This document shows positions 29,515-64,000 of a stretch of DNA of 64,000 nucleotides, one piece after another. The position numbers were made by a program, and so were the translations under genes. This stretch comes from Synechococcus sp. BIOS-E4-1. Lineage in GTDB: Bacteria > Cyanobacteriota > Cyanobacteriia > PCC-6307 > Cyanobiaceae. The stretch's first letter is position 1; each line of letters begins with the position of its first letter. The notes below the pieces were generated by a model that made no database searches, had not been told where the DNA came from, and worked only from the letters and a program-made list of their open reading frames with translations. Location of the stretch: assembly GCF_014279995.1 (NCBI RefSeq), contig NZ_CP047935.1, forward strand, positions 2,749,494 through 2,813,493, given 5' to 3'.

Positions 29515-29573
29515 ATAGTAATAATTAGCTGGCTAAAAGGGGTGCAATTTCCCATTCGCAATGATTATCTCTA

Positions 29574-33659: not shown

Positions 33660-33739
33660 CAAGTCAAATCAATTCGAGCTAAGCAGAATTGCATTCAAGC
33701 TGCGTACTCACTAAAGTGAATTGAAATGATGTCCAGCGC

Positions 33740-34843: not shown

Positions 34844-34907
34844 GTCGACGCTGACGATTGTGCCGACGGAATTCTGGCCAAAAGATGATTTTTGGCAAGA
34901 GTCACAC

Positions 34908-35903: not shown

Positions 35904-36536
35904 CAGGACTGCTTACTGACATCGTTCGATCATCGCATCGCCCGCAGACACTCCAGGAAGGGAGTAAAAACACAAAGCCATCAGGAGGACATTCGTCAGA
36001 GGCTGCGAAACAGCGCTTTGATGGCTGAACAACACAGCTTACGGCGAAGTTTTTGACCTCAGTCAGTCGTTGTTCGCTATCGATGATTGGTGCCAGCTCA
36101 AGAAAGGTCTATGAGCTTCCCCGGCCACGCCATAAATCGCTGTTGCCATCGACATAGTTTGGAACGAAGCAGCATCCAAGCAGTCGTGGAGCACTTCGGC
36201 AGGTCGATGAAGCAACTTTGGATCAATTCCGGTGCTTGCGCATCAGGAGCAACAGCAGGCGACAACATGGAGCGCCTTTACATTTCGCAGCAAGAGGTTC
36301 AAACTTTCAACGGCAAAATCATCCCGTTCGGAATCATGGACCCGCTTGTTCTGAGGGTTAACTTTCAAGCAGCCTGCTTCTCGCCCTGGCTCTACAAAAG
36401 CCAATAAGCAATTCGCTGCTCAACAGCTCGTGGCCTGCCTTAATTGCACTAGCACAAACAGGCTCAAGCTAATTTGGCATAGCTGTGAACTTCCAATGTA
36501 AGATCTTGCACATACCAAGGGTCATCAAGAATCCAA
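35904..36536. other. Intergenic stretch with one weak ORF
   Basis: About 630 bases. A 66-codon frame at 36207-36407 (plus strand; start MKQLWINSGACASGATAGDN, end ACFSPWLYKSQ) is the only candidate gene, with a weak ribosome-binding site and no known family. Nothing else is seen. The left end must hold the minus-strand promoter of the PiT-like gene. Confidence 0.35.
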
Positions 36537-37271
36537 TCAGCGCATACAAGTCGAGGGGTAGTCCTTCGGTAAGTCTTCCCCCCATTCGTTATGAGGAAGT
36601 TTATTAAATGGTGAAGGGTAAACCTGCTTGACCATTTGAAAACGACTGGGAGCTTCCGAATCATTCGGATCGTAATCAATGATCCAAAAATAATCATAGT
36701 TGTCATTCCATTTCTCTGGAACTCCCTCTAATTGGTCAAGATTCAGCAGCTGACGAAGAGTGACTTTCTGAGCTGAATACAGCCGCTCTAATCTTGGGCT
36801 AGCGATGTGGTGGTGTTCCCAGAACATCAAAACAATACGGTCGTGCCATCTGGGATTTCCGAGTACATCTGCTGCAGCTGCCCGAGTAGCACTGTTTTTT
36901 TCTGAAATTTTTGTCATGCCATTTTCACCAGGCATTGCTGCATAAGTCTTGATTGGCAGCGCCCAGCTGACAGCAGTCTGACCTGCCGTTTCAAGCGTAT
37001 GCAGAGTGATCGCAAAAATTGCAGCAGGTGCCTGACCTTCAAGCAGTGACTGATCCGTCGCGTTCTGGCCAAGATAATGTTGGCGTAACGCAATCGCCCG
37101 TCTCAACCCAATCCCACAAAGCGCATGAGAATTTGCCTTTTCGCCATGACGCAGAAGAATAATCCGACGAGGCACGGCCCGTACAGATGGTCCATGCAGA
37201 ATGATGACAGTGCAGAGGAAAGCTGCCGCCGTCAGTATGCCTAGCCATTTAGGTCTTTTTGCACATGTCAC
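36537..37271 (-). CDS. Exported histidine-phosphatase-superfamily protein
   Basis: 244 residues with a signal peptide (about 1-32, core LGILTAAAFLCTVIILHG, end VRA). The catalytic motif LLRHGEKAN (RHG, residues 40-42) is followed by GLRRAIALRQHYLG and a second conserved His in FWEHHHIASPRL, as in branch-1/2 histidine phosphatases. The substrate is unknown; the signal peptide places it in the periplasm or outside, where it could release phosphate from organic compounds. Confidence 0.82.
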   Translation of the reverse strand: MTCAKRPKWLGILTAAAFLCTVIILHGPSVRAVPRRIILLRHGEKANSHALCGIGLRRAIALRQHYLGQNATDQSLLEGQAPAAIFAITLHTLETAGQTAVSWALPIKTYAAMPGENGMTKISEKNSATRAAAADVLGNPRWHDRIVLMFWEHHHIASPRLERLYSAQKVTLRQLLNLDQLEGVPEKWNDNYDYFWIIDYDPNDSEAPSRFQMVKQVYPSPFNKLPHNEWGEDLPKDYPSTCMR

Positions 37272-37438
37272 CGATCAATCCTGTCTGGACTCCATTGGTA
37301 GCAGCGCACGAATCACTTGAGTGTGGAAGCTGGCCGACCAATGCTCAGAATCAGCCAACAGACTTGAGCCCTGAATAGCCAAAAAACCATTCAAAGCTCT
37401 CCTGAAAGACAGGAGCAGTACAACTGTTTCGCAATCAT

Positions 37439-37720
37439 CTAGTTAGCAAGCCAACGCGTGATCACCGTTCCGTCGTAAACATGGCCAGAGGCCTCAACAA
37501 TGGGTTTGGTCTGCGGGTTCGTGAAAATGTCATACAGAACATTTTCCTGACCTTGAAACATCACAGTTGCCCTCTTCGGGTCCTCTTTAGAAACACCAAG
37601 ATAAAAGATCTTGACACCCATTTCTAAGAACATCGCCTGCTAATCAGGTGCTTCCATATGGTCTCTGTACTCTTCGAAGGTCTTGCTGAGCTTGAAATCA
37701 AGAACAGTGGTTTCAATCAT
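37439..37720 (-). pseudogene. DUF3764-family gene interrupted by an in-frame amber codon
   Basis: Reading from ATG 37720, 26 codons (ETTVLDFKLSKTFEEYRDHM, EAPD) are followed by TAG at 37642-37640. The same frame then continues for 66 codons (QAMFLEMGVKIFYLGVSKED ... VITRWLAN) to a stop at 37439. The two parts together have the length and motif order of intact DUF3764 proteins. The TAG replaces what is probably Gln or Glu (CAG or GAG, one base change). So this is a recent nonsense mutation, a sequencing error, or a readthrough site. An ATG at 37633 could restart the C-terminal 64 residues. Confidence 0.8.
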
Positions 37721-38870
37721 CGCCAACAAGAGAAAAGAAGTATTTCGCAAAGGATATTCACTTAGAGCAATGATGGCGAAGGTCGATTCAAGGGCGCACT
37801 CGTCGCACCTAGCTCGAACAGGTGTGCATTGGCCCACACACTCTGCTGTTTTTCTAGACGACAGCTAACCCTTGAAGAGTAGGCGTGTGGCAAAGACAAC
37901 GATGGAGAGAGGCTTGCAGACAGATCGAAAAGCTTGGCCATGTGAGCCCTCAGTGGCATTCACAGCTCAGGACATCAAGCCGACGCCAACCGGCAACTCA
38001 ACCAAGTGGAAGCAGCTCTGGGCCCAGTCCCAGCATGCCTATCGCGGTGGGACAGCGTTTGACAAAATCTGAGCCAACCGTGGTTGAAATTTTGAGCTGC
38101 CCCCTTACTGCAGCATGAGTAAAAATTGTCATTGCACCTTGACTGTTCCCGAGGCATTTCTAGAACTCTGAAAGAGGCACGATTCGTATGGAAATCCACA
38201 CTGCCCACGCCGAACCAATTGGTGAGTTCATTCGTGAGGGACATCACAAACCATTTCGTGCTTTGGCTTGCCCAATTGGCCCCAGCTGCAAACTTGCAGG
38301 ACCTAAAGCACCGGCCCAAGAGAGCTAAGGCCGAGAGACAGACGTCACTGGCAAGTGATTCTCGAGCAATCAGTCAAAACTGAGATTTCGCAGTGGCGAA
38401 AGAGAGACCCGCCATTCGACAACACAATTCAACTTGTGCACTGGTCTCAATTCAGATGCCTACATGGGCGCTATAGCAAATTTCAAGTGAGACCACAAAA
38501 ATTGAGAGCATTTCAGACTTGATCTTGCTTTTGATACGCCTGAGTGCATTCATTTTTATTCACCAACCAAAACAAATTTTATGATAAAAAGAAAGGATTG
38601 GGAATGATGAAGCCAGCAATACCTGGATCATTAAATTTTGGCAAAAATCGCCGAAGTCTTTCTGTTAAGTGCAGCACCATGCAATCCTCCTTATCGAGCC
38701 AGCTGGCGTTGGTTGGTTGAAAAGCAAAGGAAAGGGCTGCTCTCGATGCTTTTGGATTCATTGCGAACTGCCAGCTCAACTATCCAGAGGTAAAAAATGT
38801 ATTGAGAAGCTTCAAAGACGAGAACAGAGCGTGTGAGACGCGATGATCAAGGAGCACTCAGCTTCGATTG
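37721..38870. other. Long stretch without a convincing gene
   Basis: About 1,150 bases. Several overlapping frames of 60-115 codons on both strands show no consistent coding signal. The best single candidate is 38188-38328 (plus, 46 aa, MEIHTAHAEPIGEFIREGHH), with AGAGG ten bases before ATG. The segment may be decayed genes. No hairpin, repeat or RNA gene recognised. Confidence 0.4.
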
Positions 38871-39212
38871 ATGGCTTCTAAGTTCTTCCACGTTCACCAT
38901 GAGTTTCGGGCTGGGAAATCCCAGCAATGGTGGGAGACTGCTCAAAACGCAATGGCTCCGGGCGGAGGCTGGGATGATGCAGTCGCCAACAACTTGAAGG
39001 CTGGTTTCTATAACCACTGCTTCTGCCCTGTTGGTCCTGAAGGCCCAGCGTTCTGCATCTGGGAAGTGCGTGAAGGCATCACTGCTCAGGAGTTCCAGGA
39101 CTTCATCGATGGTCCAAACGGTGTGAACTTTGGACTTGGTGCCTGGATGAATATCTGCAAAGAGATCAACGTTGAGCTGGCTGGAAATCCCCCTTACCCG
39201 CGGAAATTCTGA
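38871..39212 (+). CDS. Conserved hypothetical protein, 113 aa
   Basis: 113 residues from ATG 38871 (TTG 38868 precedes it). Sequence with strong tertiary look: FFHVHHEFRAGKSQQWWETA, CFCPVGPEGPAFCIWEVREG, TAQEFQDFIDGPNGVNFGLGAWMN. The two-strand/helix pattern resembles small dimeric alpha-beta barrels, with His-x-His and a Cys pair. I recall similar proteins in marine Synechococcus but no functional name. GC-richer than the DNA to its left, so probably a core gene. Confidence 0.75.
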   Translation: MASKFFHVHHEFRAGKSQQWWETAQNAMAPGGGWDDAVANNLKAGFYNHCFCPVGPEGPAFCIWEVREGITAQEFQDFIDGPNGVNFGLGAWMNICKEINVELAGNPPYPRKF

Positions 39213-39361
39213 ACACCACTGGCACATTGACCTGGATCAACCCCGGGTCAATTCATCCAAAATTCGGCTTTGGCCATCTCAAGGCGACCTGGTCGACAGG
39301 ACATGCCGCCTCCTCATCGCTTCGGTCTCTGAGCGATGAAAGCGATTCGTGAGATCAGGGC

Positions 39362-39490
39362 CTAGTGAACCGAATCAAACGTGATTCCCATGACTCTTGT
39401 GAGAAAGAGATAGCCGCCCCAAGTGATGACGTTCAGTCCGATCACCCAGAACCAGACAGTTTTTGTGGTTTTGCTGCTGTCTTCATCCAT
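39362..39490 (-). CDS. Putative 42-aa single-span membrane protein
   Basis: From ATG 39490 to TAG 39362. Polar N-terminus (MDEDSSKTTKT), one hydrophobic helix (VWFWVIGLNVITWGGYLFL) and a short tail (TRVMGITFDSVH). The shape and acidic N-terminus are typical of small photosynthetic-membrane proteins; no specific family recognised. Confidence 0.6.
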   Translation of the reverse strand: MDEDSSKTTKTVWFWVIGLNVITWGGYLFLTRVMGITFDSVH

Positions 39491-39543
39491 GAGTCCTCTG
39501 CTCATCAGCCCGTTACCAGCACAGGGTGCTGATCAATCACTGC

Positions 39544-39768
39544 TCAGGCGGCAGTCTGCTCAGTCGTGTTGCGAAGGACCTTCTCTTGAAGTTGCTTGAC
39601 AGCGCAAAGAGCCTCATGGGCAGGCCAGCCATGGTTGTTCATCAACTCCTCCACCAGATAGTCAGGAGAGTTGGAGATTCGAGCGTTGAGATCAGCCACA
39701 GCCCTGTCGTCACGGGCTAATGCATCGAGTCGGAGTGATCGCAGTTTTTGAATACTTGGCTGATTCAT
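39544..39768 (-). CDS. Hypothetical protein, 74 aa
   Basis: 74 residues from ATG 39768 (ATG 39783 also possible). Helical and charged: QPSIQKLRSLRLDALARDDR, DYLVEELMNNHGWPAHEALC, AVKQLQEKVL. It may be a small helical protein; no family recognised. Normal codon use for the core genome. Confidence 0.6.
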   Translation of the reverse strand: MNQPSIQKLRSLRLDALARDDRAVADLNARISNSPDYLVEELMNNHGWPAHEALCAVKQLQEKVLRNTTEQTAA

Positions 39769-39874
39769 GCCCATACTCTGCATGTTGGCGGTGCCTGAGC
39801 GCCATCAAATGACAATCGAACAAAGATCAAAGGGGCGCGCCCGGGGCTGAGGCACTGTGTTCTGAACTGGTGGT

Positions 39875-40148
39875 GGGGCCCTTCCAGGCCCCATGAGTCA
39901 TTTGGGTGATAAGGCTGACTTCACCCCATCTCCCTTAAAGGGTCAGGCAGCAACAGGGGCTGCTTGACGGGAGAAACGAACGATGTTGTTCGCAGTTACG
40001 GGTTTGCTCTTACCGAGCAGGCTTCAGTCACCCTCCTCATGCCCCGTCGAAACCATTGCAGCCCCGAAAAGAGGGAATGGAGCTGAGCGGAATCGAACCG
40101 CTGTCCGAAACACTGGTGTGGATCACCTAGTCCGGTCGAGACCGGACG
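39875..40148 (-). ncRNA. ssrA: Transfer-messenger RNA, circularly permuted two-piece form
   Basis: Minus strand, 5' to 3': the acceptor piece comes first (about 40148-40078) with the T arm GGTTCGATTCC and acceptor 3' strand CAGCTCC plus discriminator A. A 12-base intervening segment (40077-40066) follows, then the coding piece beginning GGGGCTGCAATGGTTTCGAC (from 40065). GGGGCTG pairs with CAGCTCC to close the acceptor stem, so the natural ends are swapped in the gene. The tag frame, 39993-39943, reads ANNIVRFSRQAAPVAA-stop. CCA is not encoded. A GC-rich hairpin at 39875-39892 is near the 3' end; exact mature ends are not fixed by eye. tmRNA frees stalled ribosomes. Confidence 0.93.
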
Positions 40149-49406: not shown

Positions 49407-49488
49407 TGCGGATGGCGAGACTTGAACTCGCAAGGCCGAAGCCACACGCCCCTCAAACGTGCGTGTCTACCAATTCCACCACATCCGC
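49407..49488 (-). tRNA. tRNA-Leu (GAG)
   Basis: 82 bases. Acceptor GCGGATG pairs with CATCCGC, discriminator A, D arm GTGGAATTGGTAGACAC, anticodon loop TTGAGGG with anticodon GAG (codons CUC/CUU), a long variable arm (GTGTGGCTTCGGCC region) and T arm GTTCAAGTC. Class II tRNA structure is complete; CCA is not encoded. Confidence 0.97.
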
Positions 49489-53814: not shown

Positions 53815-55821
53815 TCAGACGCGGCCGAATTCATAGCCTGCCGCGGGGAGCAAACGCCATCCTCCCTTGCCGTCAAGTTCGAGAACCGTGTCGTGGAATT
53901 CACGCAGGGTGGGTCTGTGACCGACGCTGATGAATGAGATTTCGCGTCGACAGAGCAGTTCATACAGGTGACGCTCGGTGGAGACGTCGAGAGCGCTGGT
54001 TGCCTCATCAAGAACCAGCATGTGGGGAGCATTGAGCAGCAAGCGGGCAAAGGCAAGACGCTGCTGCTCGCCAAGGGACAACAGTCGCGGCCAGTCCTGC
54101 TTCACATCCAAATCGGGATAGCGGTTGACCAGATCAGGCAGCCGCACTTCCTGGAGAACGGAACGGAACTGATCATCATCAAAGCGATCAGGCTGGAGCG
54201 GATAGGCCAGCTGCTCACGGAGCGAACCCAGCAGCATGTAAGGCTTCTGCGGGATGAAGAGCATGTCGCCAGCGGGAGGACGCTCCAGGTGACCGTCACC
54301 ACTGACCGGCCAGAGTCCGCTCGCCAGCCGCAGGAATGAGGTCTTGCCGCAGCCGGAAGGACCTACCACCAGGAGCCGTTGGCCAGCCTCCAGGCTGATG
54401 CTGAGGTCCTTGATCAGAACGCGGTCGCTCTGAGGTGGCACCAGATCAACATGACTGATCAGCAGCCGATTTGCCTCGACCTGCTGGACGTTGGGCAGGC
54501 TGCTGAGTTGATCATCTTCACTGCTGTGGGTGATCTCATCAACTCTGCCCTGGAAGCCCTCCAGACGGGAGATGCTGGCTGAAAAGGCTGCAAGACGATC
54601 AATGTTATTGACGATGTAACTGACCGAAAAAAGCACCTGGGAGAAGGCGATGCTGGCCTGTCCAAAAACACCGAAATCAACCTCCTTGGCGAAGTAGATG
54701 GGTGCGATCACCAGCCAGGGAAGAAAACGAGAGAAATAGTCGTAGGAACGCTGGATCACACTGATCAGCGCCTCCCAGATGATCAGTCGGTTGTAGTTCG
54801 TGATAGCGCCGTCCAGTCGACGATTCGCCTCCTTTCCCTCTTGCTTTTCGCCGCCGTAGAAGGCAATCGACTCGGCGTTGTCCCGAATATGGACTAGGCC
54901 GTAACGGAAGTCGGCTTCCAGCTTGAGCTGCTGATAATTCAAGGCCACAAGCTTGCGGCTGGCGTAGACGATCAGGGTGGTTCCAACCACGGAGTACACG
55001 ATCAGCAACTGGGCAAGACGGCCATTGATGCCCCACAACACAAGAATGAAACTGAAGAAGGTGAGCAGAGCCGTGATCACCTCCACCACCACACTCAAGC
55101 TGGTGATCGTGAAACTGCGGGTATCGTCAGCAATCCGCTGGTCCGGATTGTCGATATCGGAAGCGTTCTCATCATTGGGATTGAGAACGTAATAGGCCCG
55201 ATTGGAGAGATAGCGACCCAGCAGACGTGAGCTGAGCCAGCGCCTCCACATCAGACCCACCTTGGGGATCAGATAGCTCTGTACCGCTCGGATCGGCAGC
55301 GCCAGCACCAGACAGAACGCATAGATGGCAACGATGTTCCAGAAACTGGACTCGTCGTAGGCAACCAGTGCGTTCTCGATGTTGCGGGCGATGTAACTGA
55401 TGCCCACGTTGATGCCGTTGATCACCAGGATCAGCAGAGCAATCACTCCGAGCAGCAGCCACGGAAGCCAGCGCCCCTGACGCAGCTTGCTGCGGAAGGC
55501 GATGAAGAAGGCCGCACCGGCCAGAGCGCACGCCGACACCACAGGGCCGATCCAGCCCGACCAGATGGAATGGACAATCTCTTCGACACCGGGAAGAAAG
55601 CGTTCCTGCAGTGTCGGAATCAGCTGGTTGCTCAGGGCCACAACAGCTGTGAGCAGCGCCAGCGTGACCCCGATCACTACAAGCAGCAGTGAGAGAACCA
55701 ACAACAGGAACTGCCAGGTGCGGGTTTCCTCCACAGGGAGGAAATAGGGCTGGGCCAGACGCTGCAACTTGCCCAGCTGCGCGCCCAGTCCCTGGGCAGG
55801 ACGCCGAGGGGTGGTTGTCAT
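53815..55821 (-). CDS. ABC transporter with fused membrane and ATPase domains (SbmA/ABCD type)
   Basis: 668 residues. Six or so membrane spans (about 35-400) belong to the SbmA/BacA-like ABC_membrane_2 class, followed by the ATPase: Walker A GPSGCGKTSF (near 485), signature LSLGEQQRLAFARLLL and Walker B MLVLDEAT. Family members include peroxisomal fatty-acyl and vitamin B12 or peptide importers. Substrate not known here. Confidence 0.9.
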   Translation of the reverse strand: MTTTPRRPAQGLGAQLGKLQRLAQPYFLPVEETRTWQFLLLVLSLLLVVIGVTLALLTAVVALSNQLIPTLQERFLPGVEEIVHSIWSGWIGPVVSACALAGAAFFIAFRSKLRQGRWLPWLLLGVIALLILVINGINVGISYIARNIENALVAYDESSFWNIVAIYAFCLVLALPIRAVQSYLIPKVGLMWRRWLSSRLLGRYLSNRAYYVLNPNDENASDIDNPDQRIADDTRSFTITSLSVVVEVITALLTFFSFILVLWGINGRLAQLLIVYSVVGTTLIVYASRKLVALNYQQLKLEADFRYGLVHIRDNAESIAFYGGEKQEGKEANRRLDGAITNYNRLIIWEALISVIQRSYDYFSRFLPWLVIAPIYFAKEVDFGVFGQASIAFSQVLFSVSYIVNNIDRLAAFSASISRLEGFQGRVDEITHSSEDDQLSSLPNVQQVEANRLLISHVDLVPPQSDRVLIKDLSISLEAGQRLLVVGPSGCGKTSFLRLASGLWPVSGDGHLERPPAGDMLFIPQKPYMLLGSLREQLAYPLQPDRFDDDQFRSVLQEVRLPDLVNRYPDLDVKQDWPRLLSLGEQQRLAFARLLLNAPHMLVLDEATSALDVSTERHLYELLCRREISFISVGHRPTLREFHDTVLELDGKGGWRLLPAAGYEFGRV

Positions 55822-56259: not shown

Positions 56260-56370
56260 ATGCTGGCACGCTGCCTCAGTGCATCCCTGCTCGGATTCGA
56301 CGCCATTCCCGTGACCGTTGAGGTGGATCTATTTCCAGGCTTGCCAGGCCTGCAGAGCGCGGTGAGCTGA
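56260..56370 (+). pseudogene. comM: ComM/YifB fragment: N-terminal codons truncated at element boundary
   Basis: ATG 56260 begins [20 protein letters not shown], then [12 protein letters not shown], the start of the AAA+ Mg-chelatase-like ComM/YifB family. After about codon 32 the frame departs from the family (SAVS) and stops at 56370. An intact protein has about 500 residues. ComM is a helicase that helps integrate DNA in natural transformation. The break coincides with the serine-recombinase gene at 56395, so the gene is split by an inserted element. The missing C-terminal part would lie at the element's other end, outside the window. Confidence 0.85.
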
Positions 56371-56394
56371 CACCTAAATACTACTTACAATCCA

Positions 56395-57945
56395 ATGAGT
56401 GGGAAGGGCGGATTAGTGCGGGTTGCTTTGTATGCCCGTGTGAGCACCGGCAGCGAAGAACAATCTCAAGCGCTCGAGCAGCAACTGGCCCGGCTCGAGG
56501 CCTCAGCCGCCAGCCACAACGATCCAGATCCCGAGCGGTTCATCGATATCGCCAGCGGGTCACGGGACGACCGGCCGGAGCTGGCAAGGCTGCTGGCCAC
56601 CTGCAGCCAGGGGACCATCGGCACGGTGATCGTCACCCGACTGGATCGCCTCAGCAGAAGCAGCGCCCATGGAGCTCAGCTGCTTCGATATTTCAGCGAA
56701 GCCAGGACACCGAACCTCATCGCCCTTGACGATTCCATCGACCTGAGCACATCTAGCGGCAGGTTTATGGCGAGGAACTTAATTAGTTGGGCAGAGGCTG
56801 AAAGCGATCGGCTAGGCGAGCGCACACGTCATGGCCAGGCCTTTCGCAGAACACAACGGAAGCCCTTCGGATCAGTACCGCTTTGGGGTTATCGCTTCAC
56901 CGAGAACCGCGATCGCCTGGAGCCAGATCCCGACCTGTTCCCGATCGCCCAGCAGGCGGTTGCCAAATTCCTCGAAGATCCACGCACCAACACCTTGATG
57001 ACGTGGTTTCACAAGGAACACGGGATCCGCTGGGGGAGCAACTACTCCTTGCGGAGGTGGCTCTGTAACCCAACGCTCACCGGAGCCAGGGCCTATGGCC
57101 AGCAGATCAGAGAGGTTGATCCATTGACTGGCCGTAAGCGGAATATCTCAAGACCGCCTGGTGACTATGCCGAGATCCACTGGGCGGATGAAGAGGGCCA
57201 ACCCTTTCAGACGTCACTGCTGACAAGGGTGCAGCACGCCCGGATCCTGGCGGTGTTCCATGCAAGATCACGACCGAGCACTAGGCCCCTGGCGGAGGGG
57301 AACACAAGACCTCTCACCGGACTGATCACCTGCGCCGACTGCGGGCGGAACATCCACCACCATCGGCCGGGCAAAGGTGCGAGTTATTGGTGCATGCGGT
57401 GCGTCACGACCGGATGCCCCTCCCAGTACAAAACGCTCCGCGAGCAGGAGATCCGCTTCGCTCTGTTGGCATTCCTGCAGCAACACGCCGAACAGCTGGT
57501 CAGACACGTTGACGAGATGAAGGCTCTTCAAGACGGGAAGCTCAGCCCCGAGGCCGAGGCCCTGCGCGAAACAATCATGAAGCTCGAGGCGATGGATGAC
57601 CCAGACCTTCAGCCAGTCCTCGATAAAAAGAAAGCGGCACTGGCCGTGATGATCGAGTCGGCCGCTGCCGGCGGGGCCGAGGCCGCAGCCTTCCTGGAGC
57701 AGGTCAAGACCTTTCAGCTGCCGGAGATAGGCCTGGCCTCTGAGCAGGATCCGGAGAACACCCGGCGGATCCTGAAGCGCTTCATCACCGCCGAGGCCAG
57801 GGCCGGTGAGCTCGTGACCATGACCGTGGCGGAATCCATCCGGCGGCCAGGCATGTCGGCGACATTCAACTGTGAGGGCATGGGCCTAGGCCGGAAGCCA
57901 TCGAATAAAACTCAAACGGCACCAATGCCAGGGAGTCGGAGTTGA
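56395..57945 (+). CDS. Large serine recombinase (XisF-like integrase/excisionase)
   Basis: 516 residues. Resolvase catalytic domain 10-155 with LYARVSTGSEEQ (catalytic Ser17), TRLDRLSRS and ISWAEAESDRLGERTRHG; recombinase domain about 170-290 with FGSVPLWGYRF and GARAYGQQI; zinc ribbon near 320-350 (CADCGRNIHHH ... CMRC ... CPSQYK); a coiled coil about 385-430. This is the class that moves phages and elements (fdxN element XisF, phiC31 Int). It probably integrated this element into comM. It uses short att sites, so no long direct repeats are expected. Confidence 0.95.
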   Translation: MSGKGGLVRVALYARVSTGSEEQSQALEQQLARLEASAASHNDPDPERFIDIASGSRDDRPELARLLATCSQGTIGTVIVTRLDRLSRSSAHGAQLLRYFSEARTPNLIALDDSIDLSTSSGRFMARNLISWAEAESDRLGERTRHGQAFRRTQRKPFGSVPLWGYRFTENRDRLEPDPDLFPIAQQAVAKFLEDPRTNTLMTWFHKEHGIRWGSNYSLRRWLCNPTLTGARAYGQQIREVDPLTGRKRNISRPPGDYAEIHWADEEGQPFQTSLLTRVQHARILAVFHARSRPSTRPLAEGNTRPLTGLITCADCGRNIHHHRPGKGASYWCMRCVTTGCPSQYKTLREQEIRFALLAFLQQHAEQLVRHVDEMKALQDGKLSPEAEALRETIMKLEAMDDPDLQPVLDKKKAALAVMIESAAAGGAEAAAFLEQVKTFQLPEIGLASEQDPENTRRILKRFITAEARAGELVTMTVAESIRRPGMSATFNCEGMGLGRKPSNKTQTAPMPGSRS

Positions 57946-58030
57946 TTGCTGCCGCTGAACGAGTATTGGCCGGAGTTGCTAGTTGATTGCAGACTTGATT
58001 GCTAATTAAGCCCTGACTATCTCTGCTCAA

Positions 58031-58122
58031 CTGCGCTCAATCGTGCCAGGTATTGAAGGCTGATTTATGGGGTCAGTCAGACCATTGAAGCAATAAAAAA
58101 CCCCTGTCAATGCAGGGGCTTT
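58031..58122 (-). repeat. Orphan copy of the procA spacer-terminator cassette
   Basis: Starts CTGCGCTCAATCGTGCCAGG and ends with the terminator hairpin AACCCCTGTCAATGCAGGGGCTT. Sequence to the left of 58031 does not continue the cassette, so a further precursor gene may have been lost here. On the minus strand the hairpin at 58122-58093 ends the procA gene at 58150-58410; the remainder is the start of the next unit's leader without its gene. Confidence 0.75.
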
Positions 58123-58149
58123 CGCGGGTGTGTAAAAATGGTTATACCC

Positions 58150-58410
58150 TCAGTTCCAGGTGTCTACACAGGCAGTTGGCACCGGAATCAGTTGGCACCA
58201 ACCACCTTCACCAGCAGCTGCGCCCTCCAATTCCTCATCTGAAAGCTCTGTGACTTGAGCGTTCTTCAAGTCTTCAGCAGAAATCATAAAACCAGCCTCT
58301 TTCGCAATCGCAAGAACAGCATCAACATCAGCTGCGGCTTTGAGTTTTTCTTGAAGGCTTGAGTCTCCTTTGATTTTTTCGAGGAAAGCTTTGAATTGTT
58401 CTTCTGACAT
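58150..58410 (-). CDS. procA: Prochlorosin-type lanthipeptide precursor, copy 1
   Basis: 86 residues. Nif11-type leader at 1-65: MSEEQFKAFLEKIKGDSSLQ, EKLKAAADVDAVLAIAKEAG, ELSDEELEGAAAG, with the double-glycine-like cleavage site. The core peptide is EGGWCQLIPVPTACVDTWN, with Thr and two Cys that could form lanthionine-type rings. In marine picocyanobacteria one ProcM synthetase modifies many ProcA precursors, and the leader is removed on export. The modifying enzyme is not in this window. A terminator follows at 58122-58093. Confidence 0.9.
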   Translation of the reverse strand: MSEEQFKAFLEKIKGDSSLQEKLKAAADVDAVLAIAKEAGFMISAEDLKNAQVTELSDEELEGAAAGEGGWCQLIPVPTACVDTWN

Positions 58411-58473
58411 AGGTATCAGGAGTCTTTAACGGTTATAGCAACGGTCTACTGCAGCGTCTTTGGCTAATAATTA

Positions 58474-58565
58474 CTGCGCTCAATCGTGCCAGTTATTGAA
58501 GGCTAATTTGTGGGCTATTTGGGGTGATTGAAGAAATAAAAAGCCCCTGCCGTTGCAGGGGCTTT
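58474..58565 (-). repeat. procA spacer-terminator cassette, copy 2
   Basis: Similar to 58031-58122 over its whole length: CTGCGCTCAATCGTGCC at the start and hairpin AAGCCCCTGCCGTTGCAGGGGCTTT at 58541-58565. On the minus strand the hairpin ends the precursor gene at 58630-58875, and the other part together with 58411-58473 forms the upstream leader of the gene at 58150-58410. Confidence 0.85.
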
Positions 58566-58629
58566 GATGAGTAGGCTCAGAATCCATCCACAACCAATCA
58601 AAGGCAGCCAGGCTTCATCAACAACACCG

Positions 58630-58875
58630 TCAGCAATACCCGTACGACTTCCCCAGCAGCATTCTCCATTCGACCCCTCCACCAGCCACGCCTTCCAGCT
58701 CCTCTGCAGAAATTTCTGATTGAGCGTTCTTCAAGTCATCAGCAGAGATGCTAAACCCAGCGTCTTTCGCAATCGCAGCAACAGCATCATTGTCAGCCGC
58801 TGCTTTGAGCTTTTCCTGAAGGCTGGTGTCGACTTGGACCTTTTCCAGGAAGGCTTTGAGTTGCTCTTCTGCCAT
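58630..58875 (-). CDS. procA: Prochlorosin-type lanthipeptide precursor, copy 2
   Basis: 81 residues. Leader MAEEQLKAFLEKVQVDTSLQ, EKLKAAADNDAVAAIAKDAG, ISAEELEGVAGG is very like copy 1. The core after GVAGG is GVEWRMLLGKSYGYC: one Cys and one Ser, so at most a single thioether ring. The 5' leader (58876-58938) is similar to those of copies 1 and 3, which implies a shared promoter and ribosome-binding site (GGAGTCTTTA context read on the plus strand; AGACTCC on the coding strand). Confidence 0.9.
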   Translation of the reverse strand: MAEEQLKAFLEKVQVDTSLQEKLKAAADNDAVAAIAKDAGFSISADDLKNAQSEISAEELEGVAGGGVEWRMLLGKSYGYC

Positions 58876-58938
58876 GGGTATTGGGAGTCTTTATCGGTTG
58901 TAGCAATAATGCCTTGAAGTGTCTTTGGCTAATACTTA

Positions 58939-59030
58939 TTGCGCCCAATCGTGGCAGGCAGTGAAGGCTGGTTTATGGGGTTATTCAGGCTGTTGAAGTA
59001 ATAAAAATTCCCCATCAATGCAGGGGCTTT
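58939..59030 (-). repeat. procA spacer-terminator cassette, copy 3
   Basis: TTGCGCCCAATCGTGGCAGG at the start, ending in CCCCATCAATGCAGGGGCTTT at 59010-59030. The hairpin is weaker than in the other copies (4-5 base pairs plus mismatch), but the T-run is kept. It sits downstream of the precursor gene at 59095-59370 on the minus strand. Confidence 0.8.
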
Positions 59031-59094
59031 GAGTGTGTAAGCTTTGGAAAGTGAGGCAGTTGTGTTCAATCACAGCATTGTGCACCACAGATTG

Positions 59095-59370
59095 TCAGTG
59101 TGTATCAAAACAACATTCTGGAGAGTTACAGCACCTATCGTAACTACTGGTGCTCACAGGATCGTAAGCACCTCCCCCAGAAGCCCTTTCCAGTTCCGCG
59201 TCTGACAATTTTGATTGAATATCTTCTGCGGTAATTGCGAACCCAGCTTCTTTTGCAATTGCAGTAACAGCATCGGCATTAGCAGCTGCTTTCAGCTTCT
59301 CCTGAAGGCTGGTGTCTGCTTTGACCTTCTGAATGAACGCCTTAAGTTGTTCTTCTGACATGGGTTTCAA
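59095..59370 (-). CDS. procA: Prochlorosin-type lanthipeptide precursor, copy 3 (Cys-rich core)
   Basis: 91 residues. Leader MSEEQLKAFIQKVKADTSLQ, EKLKAAANADAVTAIAKEAG, LSDAELERASGG, preceded by three codons (MKP) so the true start is ATG 59361 or 59370. The core of about 25 residues begins GAYDPVSTSSYDRCCNS and contains four Cys in two adjacent pairs, five Ser and two Thr. It could form several lanthionine rings or disulfides, more complex than the other copies. Confidence 0.88.
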   Translation of the reverse strand: MKPMSEEQLKAFIQKVKADTSLQEKLKAAANADAVTAIAKEAGFAITAEDIQSKLSDAELERASGGGAYDPVSTSSYDRCCNSPECCFDTH

Positions 59371-59424
59371 GAGTCTTTAACGGTTATAGCAATGTTCTTC
59401 TGCAGTGTCTTTGGTTAATACTTA

Positions 59425-59516
59425 CTGCGCTCAATTGTGCCAGGTATTGAAGGCTTATTCATGAGCATTTAGGAGTGATTGAAGCAATAAAAAGCCCCTG
59501 CGGTTGCAGGGGCTTT
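59425..59516 (-). repeat. procA spacer-terminator cassette, copy 4
   Basis: CTGCGCTCAATTGTGCCAGG at the start and hairpin AAGCCCCTGCGGTTGCAGGGGCTTT near 59491-59516. It lies between the precursor gene at 59095-59370 (as its upstream leader) and the one at 59581-59808 (as its terminator). Confidence 0.85.
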
Positions 59517-59580
59517 GCAATGAGTAGGTTCTGTAGGCTGTTAATTTTAGTTGGCTGTTAAAATTTTGATTTTATTGTTA

Positions 59581-59808
59581 TTAGGGTATATTGACTGTGA
59601 TGCATTCCTTGTTCCAAGTTCCCACCCCATCCACGCCTTCCAACTCCTCTGCACTGAGCTGGCTGATATGTTCAGTGCCAAAATTGTGACCGTGCTCCTT
59701 GGCAATAGAAACAACATCTTCAGGTGACTTAGCTGCTTTTAGTTTCTCCTGAAGGCTGGAATCGCCTTTGACTTTGGAGAGAAATGCCTTTAGTTGCTCT
59801 TCTGACAT
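59581..59808 (-). CDS. procA: Prochlorosin-type lanthipeptide precursor, copy 4 (divergent)
   Basis: 75 residues from ATG 59808; the frame is open to 60000 but without family signal. Leader MSEEQLKAFLSKVKGDSSLQ, EKLKAAKSPEDVVSIAKEHG, LSAEELEGVDG. The cleavage motif reads GVDG, not GVAGG. The core VGTWNKECITVNIP has one Cys and two Thr. Upstream sequence is not the conserved leader of copies 1-3; instead the gene follows a Cys-rich ORF by 46 bases and may be read from its promoter. Confidence 0.85.
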   Translation of the reverse strand: MSEEQLKAFLSKVKGDSSLQEKLKAAKSPEDVVSIAKEHGHNFGTEHISQLSAEELEGVDGVGTWNKECITVNIP

Positions 59809-59854
59809 GGGTGACTGGCCAGTACAGAAGACTTTGCCATGGCCAGCAGCAGCG

Positions 59855-60088
59855 TCACCCGTACTCAGGGCACCATCCGGCCTGGTCCTGCCAGGTGGGT
59901 GACCAGTGGCGGCAACGCTTGAGCAGATGGTCACCTTGCTGGATCTGCTGCTGCCTGAGATTGCAGGCCACCATCGTTCGGCAGTGAGCATCCACGCCAT
60001 AGGCGAAGTGCTGACAGGTCAGACAGATCCGGGCTCCTTTCCAGTTCTGAAGCTCCCGCTCATCGACAAAATCCCACTCCTCCATCAC
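59855..60088 (-). CDS. Cys-rich small protein, possible zinc knuckle
   Basis: 77 residues. ICLTCQHFAYGVDAHCRTMV, ACNLRQQQIQQGDHLLKRCR, HWSPTW: four or five Cys in CxxC...C...C...C spacing, then WCPEYG. This could bind zinc, but no known domain matches by eye. It lies just upstream of the fourth precursor and on the same strand, so the two may be one transcript. Confidence 0.6.
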   Translation of the reverse strand: MMEEWDFVDERELQNWKGARICLTCQHFAYGVDAHCRTMVACNLRQQQIQQGDHLLKRCRHWSPTWQDQAGWCPEYG

Positions 60089-60165
60089 TCCTCTCTGCTG
60101 TAGTACAGCCGTACTAAGACAGGAGGGGAGTGGTGGTCAAGCCCTGCGCTCGGCAGGGCGCCTGA

Positions 60166-60306
60166 TCACTTGCCGCGAGCCTTGTCGGCTCGCTCATTCA
60201 CCGAGGGGATGATCAGATCTGAAGCCCTGGTGCCATCTCCAGGGCGCGATGGCTGTGGAGAGGGAATGCTGTCCCAGGGATTGCGGGCGGTTTTGGGTTC
60301 GGACAT
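60166..60306 (-). CDS. Small unknown protein, 46 aa
   Basis: From ATG 60306 to TGA 60166. Polar and Pro-rich: MSEPKTARNPWDSIPSPQPS, then GTRASDLIIPSVNERADKAR. Likely disordered. The start is preceded by AACCCCTCTCACTAAACCA (coding strand), with no strong ribosome-binding site. Similar short proteins occur in accessory regions of marine Synechococcus. Confidence 0.5.
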   Translation of the reverse strand: MSEPKTARNPWDSIPSPQPSRPGDGTRASDLIIPSVNERADKARGK

Positions 60307-60425
60307 TGGTTTAGTGAGAGGGGTTAAGTCCATTCTGACAAGGTTTATATCCCGAATTCAGCCCACCAACTGATGGGCGACTAATGTCAACTGATCATTC
60401 CTAAAAAACTCCACCGGACAAGTCA

Positions 60426-61037
60426 TTGTTTTTTGTTGTTTTACTACTGGCACACATACAGGCAGTTCTTATTCCAGCTTGGATTGCAAGTCGTATAAGC
60501 TCAAGAAAATCAACAATGCGTACTGTTTTACCAAATGGCGGCATCTCGTTGCTTTTATTTGGCTTTACTTGTTTCAGCATTGCTGCTTTTGCGGAAATGT
60601 TGGATCACACAGAAACAAACTGGATCTACATCAATCGTTTAAGTGGTTGGAACGGACTTTTTTATGCAGGCCTTGCAGGAGGCCTGGCGAGCTTGACTGC
60701 ATCTGTCACTGCAAACAAAATACTCCGAGTGTTGCTCTATGTGCTTGTGATCGCAGGAATTGTGGCATATCCGCTTCTCGGAAAAGGTGTCACAATTTCG
60801 CTTCAATCAATCATAACAATCATATTTTTGGCTCAATGGTGGAGACGTTTTCATGATCCAATTCTTTGGATCTATCCGATTTGCGGGGTTGTGCTTACAA
60901 CGGTTTTTGGAGGCATGCTTAGCTCCAGTGGTAATCAGATATGGCATGTATTTATAGGTCCAGCCGGATCGATCAGTCTGATTACACTTTGGATACTTCT
61001 GAATCGCGCTGAAAGGAAACAAAATTTCTCTAATTGA
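60426..61037 (+). CDS. Hypothetical multi-span membrane protein
   Basis: 203 residues from TTG 60426; no ATG upstream in frame. About six hydrophobic helices (1-20, 38-58, 75-95, 100-120, 125-140, 150-195). AT-richer than its neighbours. No family recognised. An isolated gene inside the element. Confidence 0.65.
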   Translation: MFFVVLLLAHIQAVLIPAWIASRISSRKSTMRTVLPNGGISLLLFGFTCFSIAAFAEMLDHTETNWIYINRLSGWNGLFYAGLAGGLASLTASVTANKILRVLLYVLVIAGIVAYPLLGKGVTISLQSIITIIFLAQWWRRFHDPILWIYPICGVVLTTVFGGMLSSSGNQIWHVFIGPAGSISLITLWILLNRAERKQNFSN

Positions 61038-61120
61038 ATACACAAACAACAATCAGAGAGAAGCTGGAATGACGCCGCATTTACATCGTGGATGGAGGGG
61101 CGAGGCATAAGGCCTAGACC

Positions 61121-61414
61121 TCAGGCCAAGCGCCGGAGCAAGGAGCGGGCGAGCAGAACAGCGTCACCGGCCCTGAGCACGACCGGATCACCTGGTGAGG
61201 CTGTTGATGGAGTCTTCTCAAGCGCAGTCCTCAGCCGCTCGAGTGAGGTGAGGTTCATCGCTGCTCTGAGGTGGTGGTTCTCCTCTGAGAGGCGAGTGGT
61301 CCAGTTCAGGTCGGCATCACACTCAACATGATCAATTCCGACAACAACATCCCAGAGAGTGTCGATCGGGATTGAAGGCTGATTCTGTTCATTTTCAGAT
61401 GCAGTGTCTGACAT
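61121..61414 (-). CDS. Hypothetical protein, 97 aa
   Basis: 97 residues from ATG 61414 (MSDTASENEQNQPSIPIDTL). The middle WDVVVGIDHVECDADLNW and helical tail NLTSLERLRTALEK, GDAVLLARSLLRRLA suggest a compact alpha/beta domain. No family recognised. The longer frame start at 61489 would overlap the divergent gene at 61464. Confidence 0.55.
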   Translation of the reverse strand: MSDTASENEQNQPSIPIDTLWDVVVGIDHVECDADLNWTTRLSEENHHLRAAMNLTSLERLRTALEKTPSTASPGDPVVLRAGDAVLLARSLLRRLA

Positions 61415-61463
61415 GGGCACCCACCATTTCTGACTTAAAATATAAATACCGCAAAAGGCGAAG

Positions 61464-61988
61464 ATGACCCACGGACTTTCCTCAAACATCTCTTGCTTAA
61501 AGAGATGGGCTCAGCACAATCCTGAACTTCCGATGCCAGAGGACTGGTCCACATTTAGCAAAACAAACCCAGAAGATGCGATCCGGATGAAAATGCAGGA
61601 TCCTGAACTTGTTTTACTCCTAAACAACTCGGCATCGGCACAGCTCAAAGCGGATGCACTCTCCGGCTCTTTCCCTGACAAAGCTCCTACAGAGCAAGAG
61701 AGAGCTGAAGCACAGCGAAGAGCTCGCGTTCAAGAGATCTTTGATCAGAAGCCTTTCGGCGGTAACGGTCGCCCAATGAACATGAGTCTGTGCTTGGAGC
61801 TGGCCAAGCTTGACCCTGCCCTGCATGCACAACTTGAAGCTAATTTCAGACAATCAGGGCCTAGCGAAGATGAACTCTTGGTTCAGCAAGCTCAGCGGAA
61901 AGCAGCCCATGAAAGAGCTCGGCATGAATCTCAATTAAAGGGTGTGCAGTTGGCACAGGCCGAGACCATGCGCCGGAGGTTCCGTTGA
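61464..61988 (+). CDS. Hypothetical protein, 174 aa
   Basis: 174 residues. N-terminal helix-rich region (LKRWAQHNPELPMPEDW), a central Glu/Arg/Gln coil (EQERAEAQRRARVQEIFDQK) and a C-terminal coil (RKAAHERARHESQLKGVQLA). No family recognised; composition suggests a rod-like or phage-type protein. The stop overlaps the next start (TTGA), so the two are probably co-translated. Confidence 0.6.
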   Translation: MTHGLSSNISCLKRWAQHNPELPMPEDWSTFSKTNPEDAIRMKMQDPELVLLLNNSASAQLKADALSGSFPDKAPTEQERAEAQRRARVQEIFDQKPFGGNGRPMNMSLCLELAKLDPALHAQLEANFRQSGPSEDELLVQQAQRKAAHERARHESQLKGVQLAQAETMRRRFR

Positions 61989-62515
61989 GCGTCACTTATC
62001 GCGGCGATGTACTCGAGCTGCACGGTTCAACGTGGGATCTCCCCGAGGGGATGCCCATCGAGAAGGCAGCCAGCTGGATCGAAGACCAGTGGATCAAAAG
62101 CGAGATGGAGCAGGCCACAGCAGAGCTCGAGGCCGAGGCCTCTGCCGCTGTGGTGATTGAGGAGCCAGAACCTGAGGCCGAGCCGCAACCGGAGCCAGAG
62201 GCCGCACCCCCGGTACCGGCATCGATTGGCGCTGCTGATGCGATCGCTATTCACACCGCTCTCAGCAAGAGCCGCGATGAGGCCAGGAACGCTGCATGTG
62301 AAAACCAGAAGATCCTCAGCGAGATCCGCGAGGCCCAGGCCAGCGTGGCTTCAGAGAAGGCCGAGATCATTCGGCTCACAAAGACAAACCAGCGGCTGAT
62401 GAATGAAGCGTTTGGCTCCTATGCCAAGCGACTGAAGGAAGCACAGGTTGAGCTCGAGATGCTGCACCACAAGATCGCGGAGCTCAAACAGACAAGTGGT
62501 GGGCGCGCGCCCTGA
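61985..62515 (+). CDS. Acidic coiled-coil protein, 176 aa
   Basis: 176 residues from TTG 61985. Short N-terminal domain (SVTYRGDVLELHGSTWDLPE), a Pro/Glu-repeat linker (PEPEAEPQPEPEAAPPVPA) and a long coiled coil (about 105-170, ASVASEKAEIIRLTKTNQRL). No family recognised. It probably partners the preceding gene. The Pro-Glu linker resembles structural or secretion-related proteins but gives no function. Confidence 0.6.
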   Translation: MSVTYRGDVLELHGSTWDLPEGMPIEKAASWIEDQWIKSEMEQATAELEAEASAAVVIEEPEPEAEPQPEPEAAPPVPASIGAADAIAIHTALSKSRDEARNAACENQKILSEIREAQASVASEKAEIIRLTKTNQRLMNEAFGSYAKRLKEAQVELEMLHHKIAELKQTSGGRAP

Positions 62516-62703
62516 GGCGTCAGTGACCCTCTCTGTGGTCCACCACGGTCGGCCTTGTGGGGGCACTTGGCCGGCCACCCCAATCACAACAGCGACATGC
62601 AAGATCCCAGAGATTCGAGAAATCCCCCGATTAGGTGATGTCTTGATGCCTACCCCTGGCGCATTCTCAACAGATGTGTTCTTAGTCGTCTGGAGGCCCA
62701 CAT

Positions 62704-63420
62704 TTGAATTTCAAGCAACCGCTTCTGCTGGTCGGATCACTTGTAGTGATTGGAGGAGCTTCTGCTCTCGTTGCGTGCGATTCCAACTCCGTAAAAGACC
62801 CGATCCAGAAGAAATCTGGTCTCAAGGCAGCCACAACCAAAACACCAGCTGTGAAAAAGGAAGCGCCATATCAAGCACCAATCTCTGAATACGCCACAAA
62901 GCCCTACACAGCAGCAGGCGGCTACGAAAAAACCGTCGCCAAGTACGGCCCACGATTGGGCGAGCTGCAGGCATATAGGGAGAAGGCAGCTGATGTTGCC
63001 AGCCGAGACCGCTCCTGTGATTCGGTCATCGCCGCTGAAATCTCCTCGATGCGTGGTGGTCTTAACGACATGCATTTTTGGGTTGATTGCGAAAACGGCA
63101 CCCGCTTCCGCTTCAGCGAAAGTGAGCTCAATCAAGCGAATGTCGTCGCTGTCTCTGAAGCCGACAAGGTGATCAGCGAAGACCTGGCCGTAGATCGCTG
63201 CGAGGAGATGATCGCTAACAGCGTCACCCATCCCAGCACTGTCGGCATCAACCGCTTTGCCGGATACAACTACGGGAAGTTTGATCAGACCGGTGCTGCC
63301 TCGGTGAATCTGCTGTTCTCCGCGAAAAACAGCTTCGGCACCGAGTTGAAATTCAACGCCCGGTGCACCTTCCAATCAGACGGATCCGGTGAGATCACCA
63401 TTAAGGAGCGGACCAGCTGA
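62704..63420 (+). CDS. Putative lipoprotein, 238 aa
   Basis: 238 residues from TTG 62704. Signal with lipobox: LLLVGSLVVIGGASALVAC. The mature part has a Lys/Thr/Pro-rich linker followed by a domain of about 160 residues with Cys at several places (SCDSVI, WVDCENG, DRCEEM, ARCTFQ), probably disulfide-bonded. No family recognised. Function unknown. Confidence 0.68.
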   Translation: MNFKQPLLLVGSLVVIGGASALVACDSNSVKDPIQKKSGLKAATTKTPAVKKEAPYQAPISEYATKPYTAAGGYEKTVAKYGPRLGELQAYREKAADVASRDRSCDSVIAAEISSMRGGLNDMHFWVDCENGTRFRFSESELNQANVVAVSEADKVISEDLAVDRCEEMIANSVTHPSTVGINRFAGYNYGKFDQTGAASVNLLFSAKNSFGTELKFNARCTFQSDGSGEITIKERTS

Positions 63421-63440
63421 TGCCGCGTTTTTAGAACCCA

Positions 63441-63722
63441 GTGAACGGCCACATTGTTCATGTCGACACAACAATGGTCTGGCTCGGCGCACTCCTGTTT
63501 GGCCCGATCTTCTTCCTGTGTATTGGAGAGATCGGCCACGGTTTGGCCAACTTCCTCCTCGGCCTTGCTTTGTGGGCCGTTTTCCTGGGCTGGATTGTTT
63601 GGATCGTCTGGGCCATCGCCGCGCCCGGAATTGTTCGCCAAAAGTGGCTGAGCAAGGGTTACCGGGAAATGGATGCCGCAGAGCCTTCTAACTACAGAGG
63701 TCCATCAAATAAGGCAAGTTGA
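63441..63722 (+). CDS. Small membrane protein, 93 aa
   Basis: 93 residues from GTG 63441. Two hydrophobic helices (about 12-30, FGPIFFLCIGEIG, and 35-62, FLLGLALWAVFLGWIVWIVW), then a basic/polar tail. No family recognised. It follows the lipoprotein gene by 20 bases, so they may form an operon. Confidence 0.65.
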   Translation: MNGHIVHVDTTMVWLGALLFGPIFFLCIGEIGHGLANFLLGLALWAVFLGWIVWIVWAIAAPGIVRQKWLSKGYREMDAAEPSNYRGPSNKAS

Positions 63723-63774
63723 CGTTCTATCCGCGACTCATCTAGTCGAGCTCGTTAACCCAAAGCTCTCAGGA

Positions 63775-64000
63775 TTAACTCCCAGGAGCGATCTCCCAGA
63801 AATGGGAATAACTCGGCCGGTTCCATTCATCGTTTCGGCCGTAGCGATGGCTTCGCTCAACAGCGGAGTGCTTCAGGTTCCACTGGCGCCACCAGGTGAA
63901 GGGATGGCCCAACAGCTCGAGCTCATCACGATGGACGCTGGTGGTCATCTCCAGCTGTGGCTGATGGGGATCCTTTGTCAGGTAGTGGATCCGAATCCAG
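63775..64000 (-). CDS. C-terminal part of an unknown protein, 5' end beyond window
   Basis: About 74 codons on the minus strand end at TAA 63775. The visible part (HQPQLEMTTSVHRDELELLG, HPFTWWRQWNLKHSAVERSH, WNRPSYSHFWEIAPGS) is rich in His, Trp and Arg. No family recognised. Its start lies beyond base 64000. Confidence 0.6.
   Translation of the reverse strand, partial: WIRIHYLTKDPHQPQLEMTTSVHRDELELLGHPFTWWRQWNLKHSAVERSHRYGRNDEWNRPSYSHFWEIAPGS

Follow-up and report, generated by a model that had tools for sequence, protein, structure and literature searches.

The fdxN element of heterocyst-forming cyanobacteria splits a chromosomal gene and has a large serine recombinase (LSR), XisF; heterocyst elements and the comK prophage of Listeria are precedents for excision that restores a gene. 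Serine integrases usually have an attP made of a long inverted repeat with a two-base core at its centre, and excision by an LSR normally requires an accessory factor. In the excerpted text of Durrant et al. 2022 (PMC10083194), genes annotated as 'magnesium chelatase/ATP-dependent protease', a class that we infer from the annotation to be ComM/YifB, are the target of 12.4% of the predicted site-specific integrases, and competence genes are enriched among the targets. LSR insertion in this gene class is thus already published as very common; words starting with cyanobacteri- are absent from the main text of that paper. Mobile elements have also been described in comM of Aggregatibacter, Acinetobacter, Mannheimia, Francisella and Pseudomonas, where they were interpreted as an attack on transformation (PMC4774983, presumably Croucher et al. 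2016). In A. baumannii, transformation is depressed by the AbaR island in comM; curing the cells of the island restored comM and increased transformation about 300- to 1000-fold (PMC7508600). Marine picocyanobacteria have been described as not known to be competent, and PilA3 strains carry comEA and comEC (PMC7994388). A search of the open-licence literature, with subscription papers and supplements outside its scope, found no description of mobile elements inserting into comM in picocyanobacteria; comM as a whole word is absent from PMC6907783, PMC4701971 and PMC5357655, and the matches to 'comm' in the excerpted text of PMC3146451 are 'common', 'commonly' and 'pers. comm.'.

The locus described here lies in the one-contig genome of Synechococcus sp. 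BIOS-E4-1 (G000; 3,314,220 bases, 99.99% complete). The window, that is, the whole stretch of DNA analysed, comprises 64,000 nucleotides (G000:C1:2749494-2813493); positions past its end are given on the same scale. The features at the two ends of the insertion are as follows.

56260 to 56352, plus strand: comM codons 1-31 (the 5' stub), a frame uninterrupted here in 11 relatives
56353 to 56355, plus strand: core CAG of attL, which is comM codon 32 (Gln32) and the left end of the element
56356 to 56375, no strand: element-side arm of attL, AGCGC plus GGTGAGCTGACACCT, a near-inverted repeat of AGGTGCCAACTCACC at 74307-74321
56395 to 57945, plus strand: large serine recombinase, 516 aa, with PF00239 and PF13408 over cut-off and a match to the phrog_95 integrase
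74328 to 74330 on the window scale (L005:3328-3330), plus strand: core CAG of attR, after which comM codons 33-516 continue in frame

The frame at 56260-56370 holds 32 ComM codons followed by 4 foreign codons and a stop, and the LSR start comes after 39 bases of element DNA counted from the core. The distal part of comM (484 codons) was found 10.3 kb past the end of the window, 17,975 bp from the stub and in frame with it; its stop ends at 75785, outside the window. When G000 was searched with the TIGR00368 profile, a single match exceeded the cut-off; it covers profile positions 24-499 at G000:C1:2823809-2825248 (74316-75755 on the window scale), and the first part is absent. Two further matches, in other open frames, reached only 18-22 bits, and no second copy of comM was found in this whole-genome search. 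Joining the flanks at the CAG gives a single 516-codon ORF whose sole stop is its own. The comM gene of G000 is single-copy and is broken by a precise site-specific insertion.

At the left end the sequence is ...GGCCTG-CAG-AGCGC-GGTGAGCTGACACCT..., and at the right end it is ...AGGTGCCAACTCACC-ACACTC-CAG-CTGGTGGGC.... The arms of the attP reconstructed from these ends mirror each other about the CA of the CAG at 18 of 24 positions, which makes this attP a near-palindrome. In 2000 shuffles of its bases such symmetry was never equalled, so that the junction exceeds chance; attB shows no special symmetry, as 1629 of 2000 shuffles did equally well. A short core shared by the two ends, together with a near-palindromic attP some 50 bp long, marks an LSR element, and both are present here. 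The 17,975-bp element would have entered comM by LSR-catalysed recombination of attP with attB at the CA of the Gln32 CAG, and its excision would restore comM exactly. Taken as a whole, LSR-catalysed entry into comM, with the consequences discussed below, is very probably the best explanation of the locus.

The recombinase has the catalytic Resolvase and zinc-ribbon domains of an LSR and aligns with gamma-delta resolvase and the TP901-1 integrase. Its residues R15, S17, D84, R85 and R88, which are invariant in 20 aligned LSR relatives, align with gamma-delta Arg8, Ser10, Asp67, Arg68 and Arg71, which we take to be the catalytic residues of that enzyme. From this alignment the LSR looks intact, with its catalytic residues in place. 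It is 24-31% identical to five proteins named XisF and scores 236.4 bits against the XisF equivalog NF041201, below the curated cut-off of 375. In the family set of 400 genomes, LSR matches at E <= 1e-20 occur in 7, and close ones in two: G000 itself and Synechococcus sp. A15-24 (G139; 57%). Six genomes with more distant LSRs (G275, G304, G076, G130, G093 and G010) keep comM over the cut-off, the match in G130 starting only at profile position 128; the comM site may thus belong to this LSR lineage rather than to all LSRs, two insertion sites of the lineage having been found here. Single-sequence scans of genome_contigs and viral_contigs found no close relatives of the LSR. An alignment-based scan of genome_contigs kept 80 loci, all of them distant recombinases (<=39%), and in viral_contigs the same scan found 38 loci, 37-54% identical, where no ComM or other element genes were found in the stretch examined (tblastn, E <= 1e-3).

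The site was compared with that of relatives in a genus set of 31 genomes, G000 included. In 27 of the 31, ComM can be read in a single frame without a break from residue 1 to residue 510 or beyond. The exceptions are G000 itself, G021, where comM is in two frames with one stop, G013, where it runs off the contig, and G017 (80% complete), which yielded just a weak hit on a different AAA protein. At the DNA level the comparison covered 11 of the 27 intact loci; the 120 bases round the site aligned gap-free over at least 98 bases in all 11, at 76-88% identity. The uninterrupted frames and the gap-free site together indicate that intact comM is the genus norm, and the relatives thus show the empty site expected of an LSR insertion. 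The earlier note had claimed that comM breaks after 32 codons just before an LSR and that a serine-recombinase element is inserted there. The first claim agrees with the 24 bases between the stop of the stub and the LSR ATG at 56395, and the second is upheld by the two junctions, the attP palindrome and the empty site. The remainder of comM and the matching core for which it proposed looking downstream of the window are present at the positions given above, its proposed comparison with relatives found their comM intact, and the restored 516-codon ORF agrees with its claim that precise excision would repair the gene. It had named two findings as contrary: a second, complete comM with no distal part beyond the element, and relatives with the same 36-codon ORF and no element. 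We found no second copy, and the gene of the relatives is uninterrupted.

At one stub codon of comM an Ala is changed to Phe in G000 only, among five genomes compared. Over the 484 distal codons, the unique amino-acid changes number 11 in G000, 10 in G028, 1 in G016, 10 in G025 and 16 in G008. The dN/dS of distal comM is 0.188 for the pair G000-G028, the top of ten pairs (the others range from 0.128 to 0.159), a value that could reflect slightly relaxed selection and speaks weakly against full constraint. Since the separated part is without clear decay, the insertion into G000 comM is probably fairly recent. The ABC transporter gene adjoining comM (53815-55821) has a dN of 0.02 to G008 and of about 0.40 to G028, G016 and G025; it is close to G008 while comM is not, so that replacement by recombination (or a paralogue match) is likely for this gene.

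The second close LSR is found at the same place in comM. In A15-24, a HIT-family gene, a 34-codon comM stub and the LSR (P0008, 57%) occur in the same order as in G000, and the stub is 82% identical to that of G000 over 34 residues. The junction reads CAG, five bases, then GGTGAG..CACACCT, so that an arm related to that of G000 recurs at the same 5-nt spacing. Because the bases after the CAG also agree with comM there (CAGCTGGTGG), the crossover is fixed only within ten bases; the arm spacing fits a crossover at the CAG. In the 25 bases past the core, A15-24 agrees with G000 at 14 positions, which was equalled by 11 of 5000 random offsets, and the distance from core to LSR start is 54 bases. 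Neither the remaining comM, sought in the complete A15-24 genome (E <= 0.001), nor the right end (attR) of its element was found, and the insertion therefore looks permanent. A tblastn comparison of a 34-kb stretch of A15-24 found no G000 element gene shared other than the LSR, and the genes that follow comM in G000 sit 3-4 kb downstream of the A15-24 LSR (the first recognised by eye). The simplest reading is that a related integrase made an insertion of its own in A15-24, and that distal comM and most of the element were lost afterwards. The reduced element of A15-24 has an ORF that by eye resembles part of a type I restriction methylase (R coordinates 17464-18492, merged L154/L155).

Across the family set, comM was detected at E <= 1e-15 in 211 of the 400 genomes and exceeded the cut-off in 193. 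It was re-examined in 25 genomes with a split or partial match, the outcomes below leaving aside G248 and G357. In G172 the gene is interrupted near codon 305, within the conserved GVLFLDE stretch, and its remainder begins 16.8 kb further on; the break in G208 is at that place too, with about 8.3 kb before the gene continues. Both inserts encode a tyrosine integrase of 470-471 aa, the two being 64% identical to one another and lying 1.1 kb (G172) and 0.3 kb (G208) from distal comM. The G172 insert (L223, G172:C1:1172301-1191800) also encodes a single-subunit T7-type RNA polymerase (PF00940). By eye, the G208 insert (L224, G208:C1:2473201-2484200) encodes four similar-looking small proteins in tandem, each 110-116 aa long and with a signal-like start. 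In G264, an insert of 0.5 kb occupies this same position in comM. Inspection by eye suggests a short core at both insert ends (TTCTCGACGAG in G172), and a script found no direct repeats of at least 12 bases at the inserts of G172, G208 and G264. Stops or frame breaks in the absence of an insert were found in G021, G100, G117, G147, G235, G251, G285, G294 and G335, some of the single breaks possibly being sequencing errors, and comM of G227 is truncated inside a contig. The candidate insertions in G158, G252 and G351 were dropped as their breaks fall at contig ends; comM of G013, G103, G286, G289 and G330 is cut at or near contig ends, and G083 and G211 were dropped as broken genes as comM is one open frame in both. 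The tyrosine-integrase elements near codon 305 in two further genomes make comM a recurrent target in the family; judging from these genomes, comM is a repeated integration target in this marine picocyanobacterial family. That comM is a shared target had been claimed in advance, and A15-24, G172, G208 and the published cases agree.

The integrated element of G000 contains the following features in addition to the LSR.

56353 to 64000, no strand: part of the integrated element inside the window (the whole, 17,975 bp, extends to 74327 on the window scale)
58150 to 58410, minus strand: Nif11-leader (prochlorosin-type) precursor 1, TIGR03798 85 bits (cut-off 32.3)
58630 to 58875, minus strand: Nif11-leader precursor 2, TIGR03798 84.9 bits (cut-off 32.3)
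59095 to 59361, minus strand: Nif11-leader precursor 3, TIGR03798 88.7 bits (cut-off 32.3)
59581 to 59808, minus strand: Nif11-leader precursor 4, TIGR03798 81.8 bits (cut-off 32.3)
59855 to 60088, minus strand: 77-aa cysteine-rich small ORF, with a 45% identical relative in the G304 LSR island and no family match
60426 to 61037, 61464 to 61988, 61985 to 62515, 62704 to 63420 and 63441 to 63722, plus strand: ORFs
61121 to 61489, minus strand: ORF
63775 to 64293, minus strand: unassigned 172-aa ORF, which leaves the window at 64000
64659 to 66104, minus strand: TerL, phrog_2 at 4.7e-19, no Pfam match
66661 to 67080, plus strand: 139-aa ORF
67198 to 67860, plus strand: tyrosine recombinase of 220 aa, internal to the element, PF00589 at 9.9e-25
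67862 to 68449, minus strand: HTH protein, sub-cut-off matches
68932 to 72801, minus strand: 1289-aa replication-type protein, no family match
73253 to 73834, minus strand: DUF6011 protein
74109 to 74285, minus strand: Arc-like 58-aa protein, beside attR

The ORFs of 60426-63722 matched no Pfam family over cut-off, and their PHROGs matches were only to families of unknown function. The 1289-aa protein, which starts with a zinc-finger-like CPIC...C and contains a VVIDE motif as well as a TSGTGSGKT motif recognised by eye, is probably a replication helicase; a comparison with solved structures gave no match at E <= 0.1. Searches of viral contigs for close relatives of this protein and of TerL found none. 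Among the 18 element proteins, PHROGs searches found no capsid, portal or tail families, although undescribed families could escape such a search. The element thus has a packaging gene, the sign of which is the phrog_2 match of TerL alone, and no recognised structural genes. With its terminase, a replication-type protein and no recognised capsid or tail gene, it would be phage-satellite-like and might, with less certainty, spread by packaging with a helper phage.

The set of terL, ORF, tyrosine recombinase and HTH gene recurs in G000 (TerL 83% identical, at 1169467) and in G016 (83%); it recurs away from the LSR and so looks like a separately travelling module. G304 and G093, both with intact comM, each have an island that combines a relative of the LSR with a relative of the 1289-aa protein. 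Those islands (L176 and L177, respectively) lie near tRNA-Phe, in opposite orientation relative to the tRNA. An LSR relative (P0002) and a relative of the 1289-aa protein (P0167) are each recorded with nine contigs, the longest being 15,790 bases in both cases, and probably belong to the same element. No defence genes were reported by PADLOC among the 10 element proteins given to it, no RNA families reached the gathering score in L004, and no tRNAs were found in 55001-81000 (window scale; L004 and L005), the nearest in the window being at 49407-49488. The GC content is 38-54% at 13000-19000 and 21000-40000 of the window and near 60% elsewhere, a composition suggesting that the low-GC stretches are further islands.

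The peptides that the element had been claimed to carry are the four TIGR03798 precursors at 58150-59808. All four match the Nif11 leader and LanM is encoded in the same genome, the combination expected for prochlorosins; a GG-type leader end was seen by eye in 3 of the 4, and the Cys counts of precursors 1-4 are 2, 1, 4 and 1. Two full LanM enzymes are encoded elsewhere in G000, where a further LanM match stays below cut-off, so that the element peptides can be matured in trans; the four precursors would depend for this on the two LanM enzymes of the host. At least 150 Nif11-leader matches were counted in G000 (150 of 276 candidates scored), in 35 clusters and a few of them with internal stops, and by this count the predicted lanthipeptide set of the strain is very large. 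TerL copies lie at 944355, 1169467, 2504822 and 2814155 of G000:C1, the last being that of this element. All four loci are within 10.4 kb of a Nif11 precursor, and about 26% of random positions are within 12 kb of one; this is a post hoc comparison with n=4, one of the four being the comM element itself. The precursors may travel with terminase-bearing elements. Recombinases and integrases were noted in precursor clusters in the excerpted text of a 2023 prochlorosin survey (PMC10783134). The element suggests a route by which lanthipeptide precursors could move without their modifying enzyme.

The role of ComM has been established in proteobacteria (PMC7508600) and is transferred here by analogy. 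A ComM deprived of its first residues, whether by the split or through translation from a GTG, would work poorly, and incorporation of incoming DNA would be reduced, uptake genes such as comEC remaining. A ComEC domain is present in 30 of the 31 genus genomes, G000 included, so that DNA uptake may persist. Impaired natural transformation is, by this analogy, likely in G000. The short distances between core and LSR (39 bases in G000 and 54 in A15-24) imply that the comM 5' region probably contributes to transcription of the LSR; a consensus scan found no sigma-70-like promoters near comM or the LSR. Promoter capture might go further, such that the LSR is transcribed through the comM 5' region and the element senses the competence programme of its host: induction of comM would lead to LSR synthesis and, together with a directionality factor (perhaps the Arc-like protein), to exit of the element and restoration of comM, a scheme that we regard as unlikely. 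In the same speculative vein, the repeated attack on comM, at two codons and by two integrase classes, would point to natural transformation in marine picocyanobacteria. Repeated insertion into this gene, which serves the recombination of incoming DNA, hints indirectly that transformation is, or once was, of importance to picocyanobacterial mobile elements.

Other readings of the locus differ in what they make of the choice of comM and of its state. The choice of site could be neutral, with conserved coding sequence providing a stable attB in a dispensable gene, and neither selection nor a switch involved. We treat this as a serious contender that we are slightly inclined to doubt. Both target sites in comM lie in conserved stretches, and comM went undetected at E <= 1e-15 in 189 of the 400 genomes of the family; among the 20 of these that were listed, 19 are of 1.2-1.9 Mb and one of 2.0 Mb. 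The gene is also apparently broken or reduced with no visible element in several family genomes, and such breaks suggest that loss of comM needs no element, which weakens the view that insertion was selected for its effect. A neutral choice is harder to reconcile with the convergence of two integrase classes on one competence gene, with the mobile elements that strike comM in proteobacteria too (PMC4774983) and with the enrichment of competence genes among LSR targets (PMC10083194), as far as the excerpted text of these papers goes. A single ancestral insertion common to the two genera and lost many times would account for the same codon and the related LSRs in G000 and A15-24 but not easily for intact comM in 27 of 31 genus genomes or for an LSR that is the only element gene shared in the 34-kb A15-24 stretch (tblastn), and is very improbable in place of two insertions.

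The insertion might also have no phenotype at all if distal comM were re-expressed inside the element as a working short ComM. An in-frame GTG at 74334 gives 483 aa that include the whole AAA+ part, but the conserved N-terminal stretch would be missing and L005:2900-3700 has no promoter-like site, although the consensus scan found none before comM itself either; we think this reading unlikely. The earlier note had gone further and proposed a competence switch, in which regulated excision restores comM under defined conditions. Excision would be seamless by geometry, the LSR looks intact, distal comM is not clearly decaying, and the Arc-like small protein beside attR could regulate or direct recombination; by its position it is perhaps a candidate directionality factor. 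Against this, neither a directionality factor nor an excised form nor any regulation of excision was seen, the change looks permanent in A15-24, where neither attR nor the remaining comM was found, and recency alone accounts for the absent decay. The switch proposal was therefore not sustained, and we consider it improbable. LSR-catalysed entry into comM, probably fairly recent and with impaired transformation as its likely effect, is the reading that we carry forward.

Like XisF of the fdxN element, the G000 LSR is a large serine recombinase of a cyanobacterium and interrupts a gene of the chromosome. The kinship of the two is only distant, however (236 vs 375 bits), which tells against the comparison with heterocyst elements drawn in the earlier note, and developmental excision is a feature of the fdxN and heterocyst elements, whereas in G000 only the geometry allows precise excision. 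With the elements of Durrant et al. (PMC10083194), as excerpted, the G000 element shares the LSR, the target gene class and the attL/attR geometry; it adds to them the host, the cargo and recurrence at one codon across two genera. The comM islands of proteobacteria and AbaR likewise interrupt comM, but they are proteobacterial, and the excerpted text of PMC4774983 and PMC7508600 mentions neither an LSR nor lanthipeptide cargo. In the excerpted descriptions, tycheposons, VEIME and PICMI are, like the G000 element, cargo-bearing integrative elements of marine bacteria, and a terminase without recognised capsid genes is a trait shared with marine phage satellites. Tycheposons have a tyrosine recombinase and a tRNA gene, in contrast to the LSR at the edge and the comM site of the G000 element, which is not a tycheposon by these marks. 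What is new here is the host family, the lanthipeptide cargo, the second site and the repeated use of a single codon in different genera: comM codon 32/33 is an LSR site in two genera, and codon ~305 is a tyrosine-integrase site in two genomes. The strain allows comM-split and comM-intact sister species to be compared.
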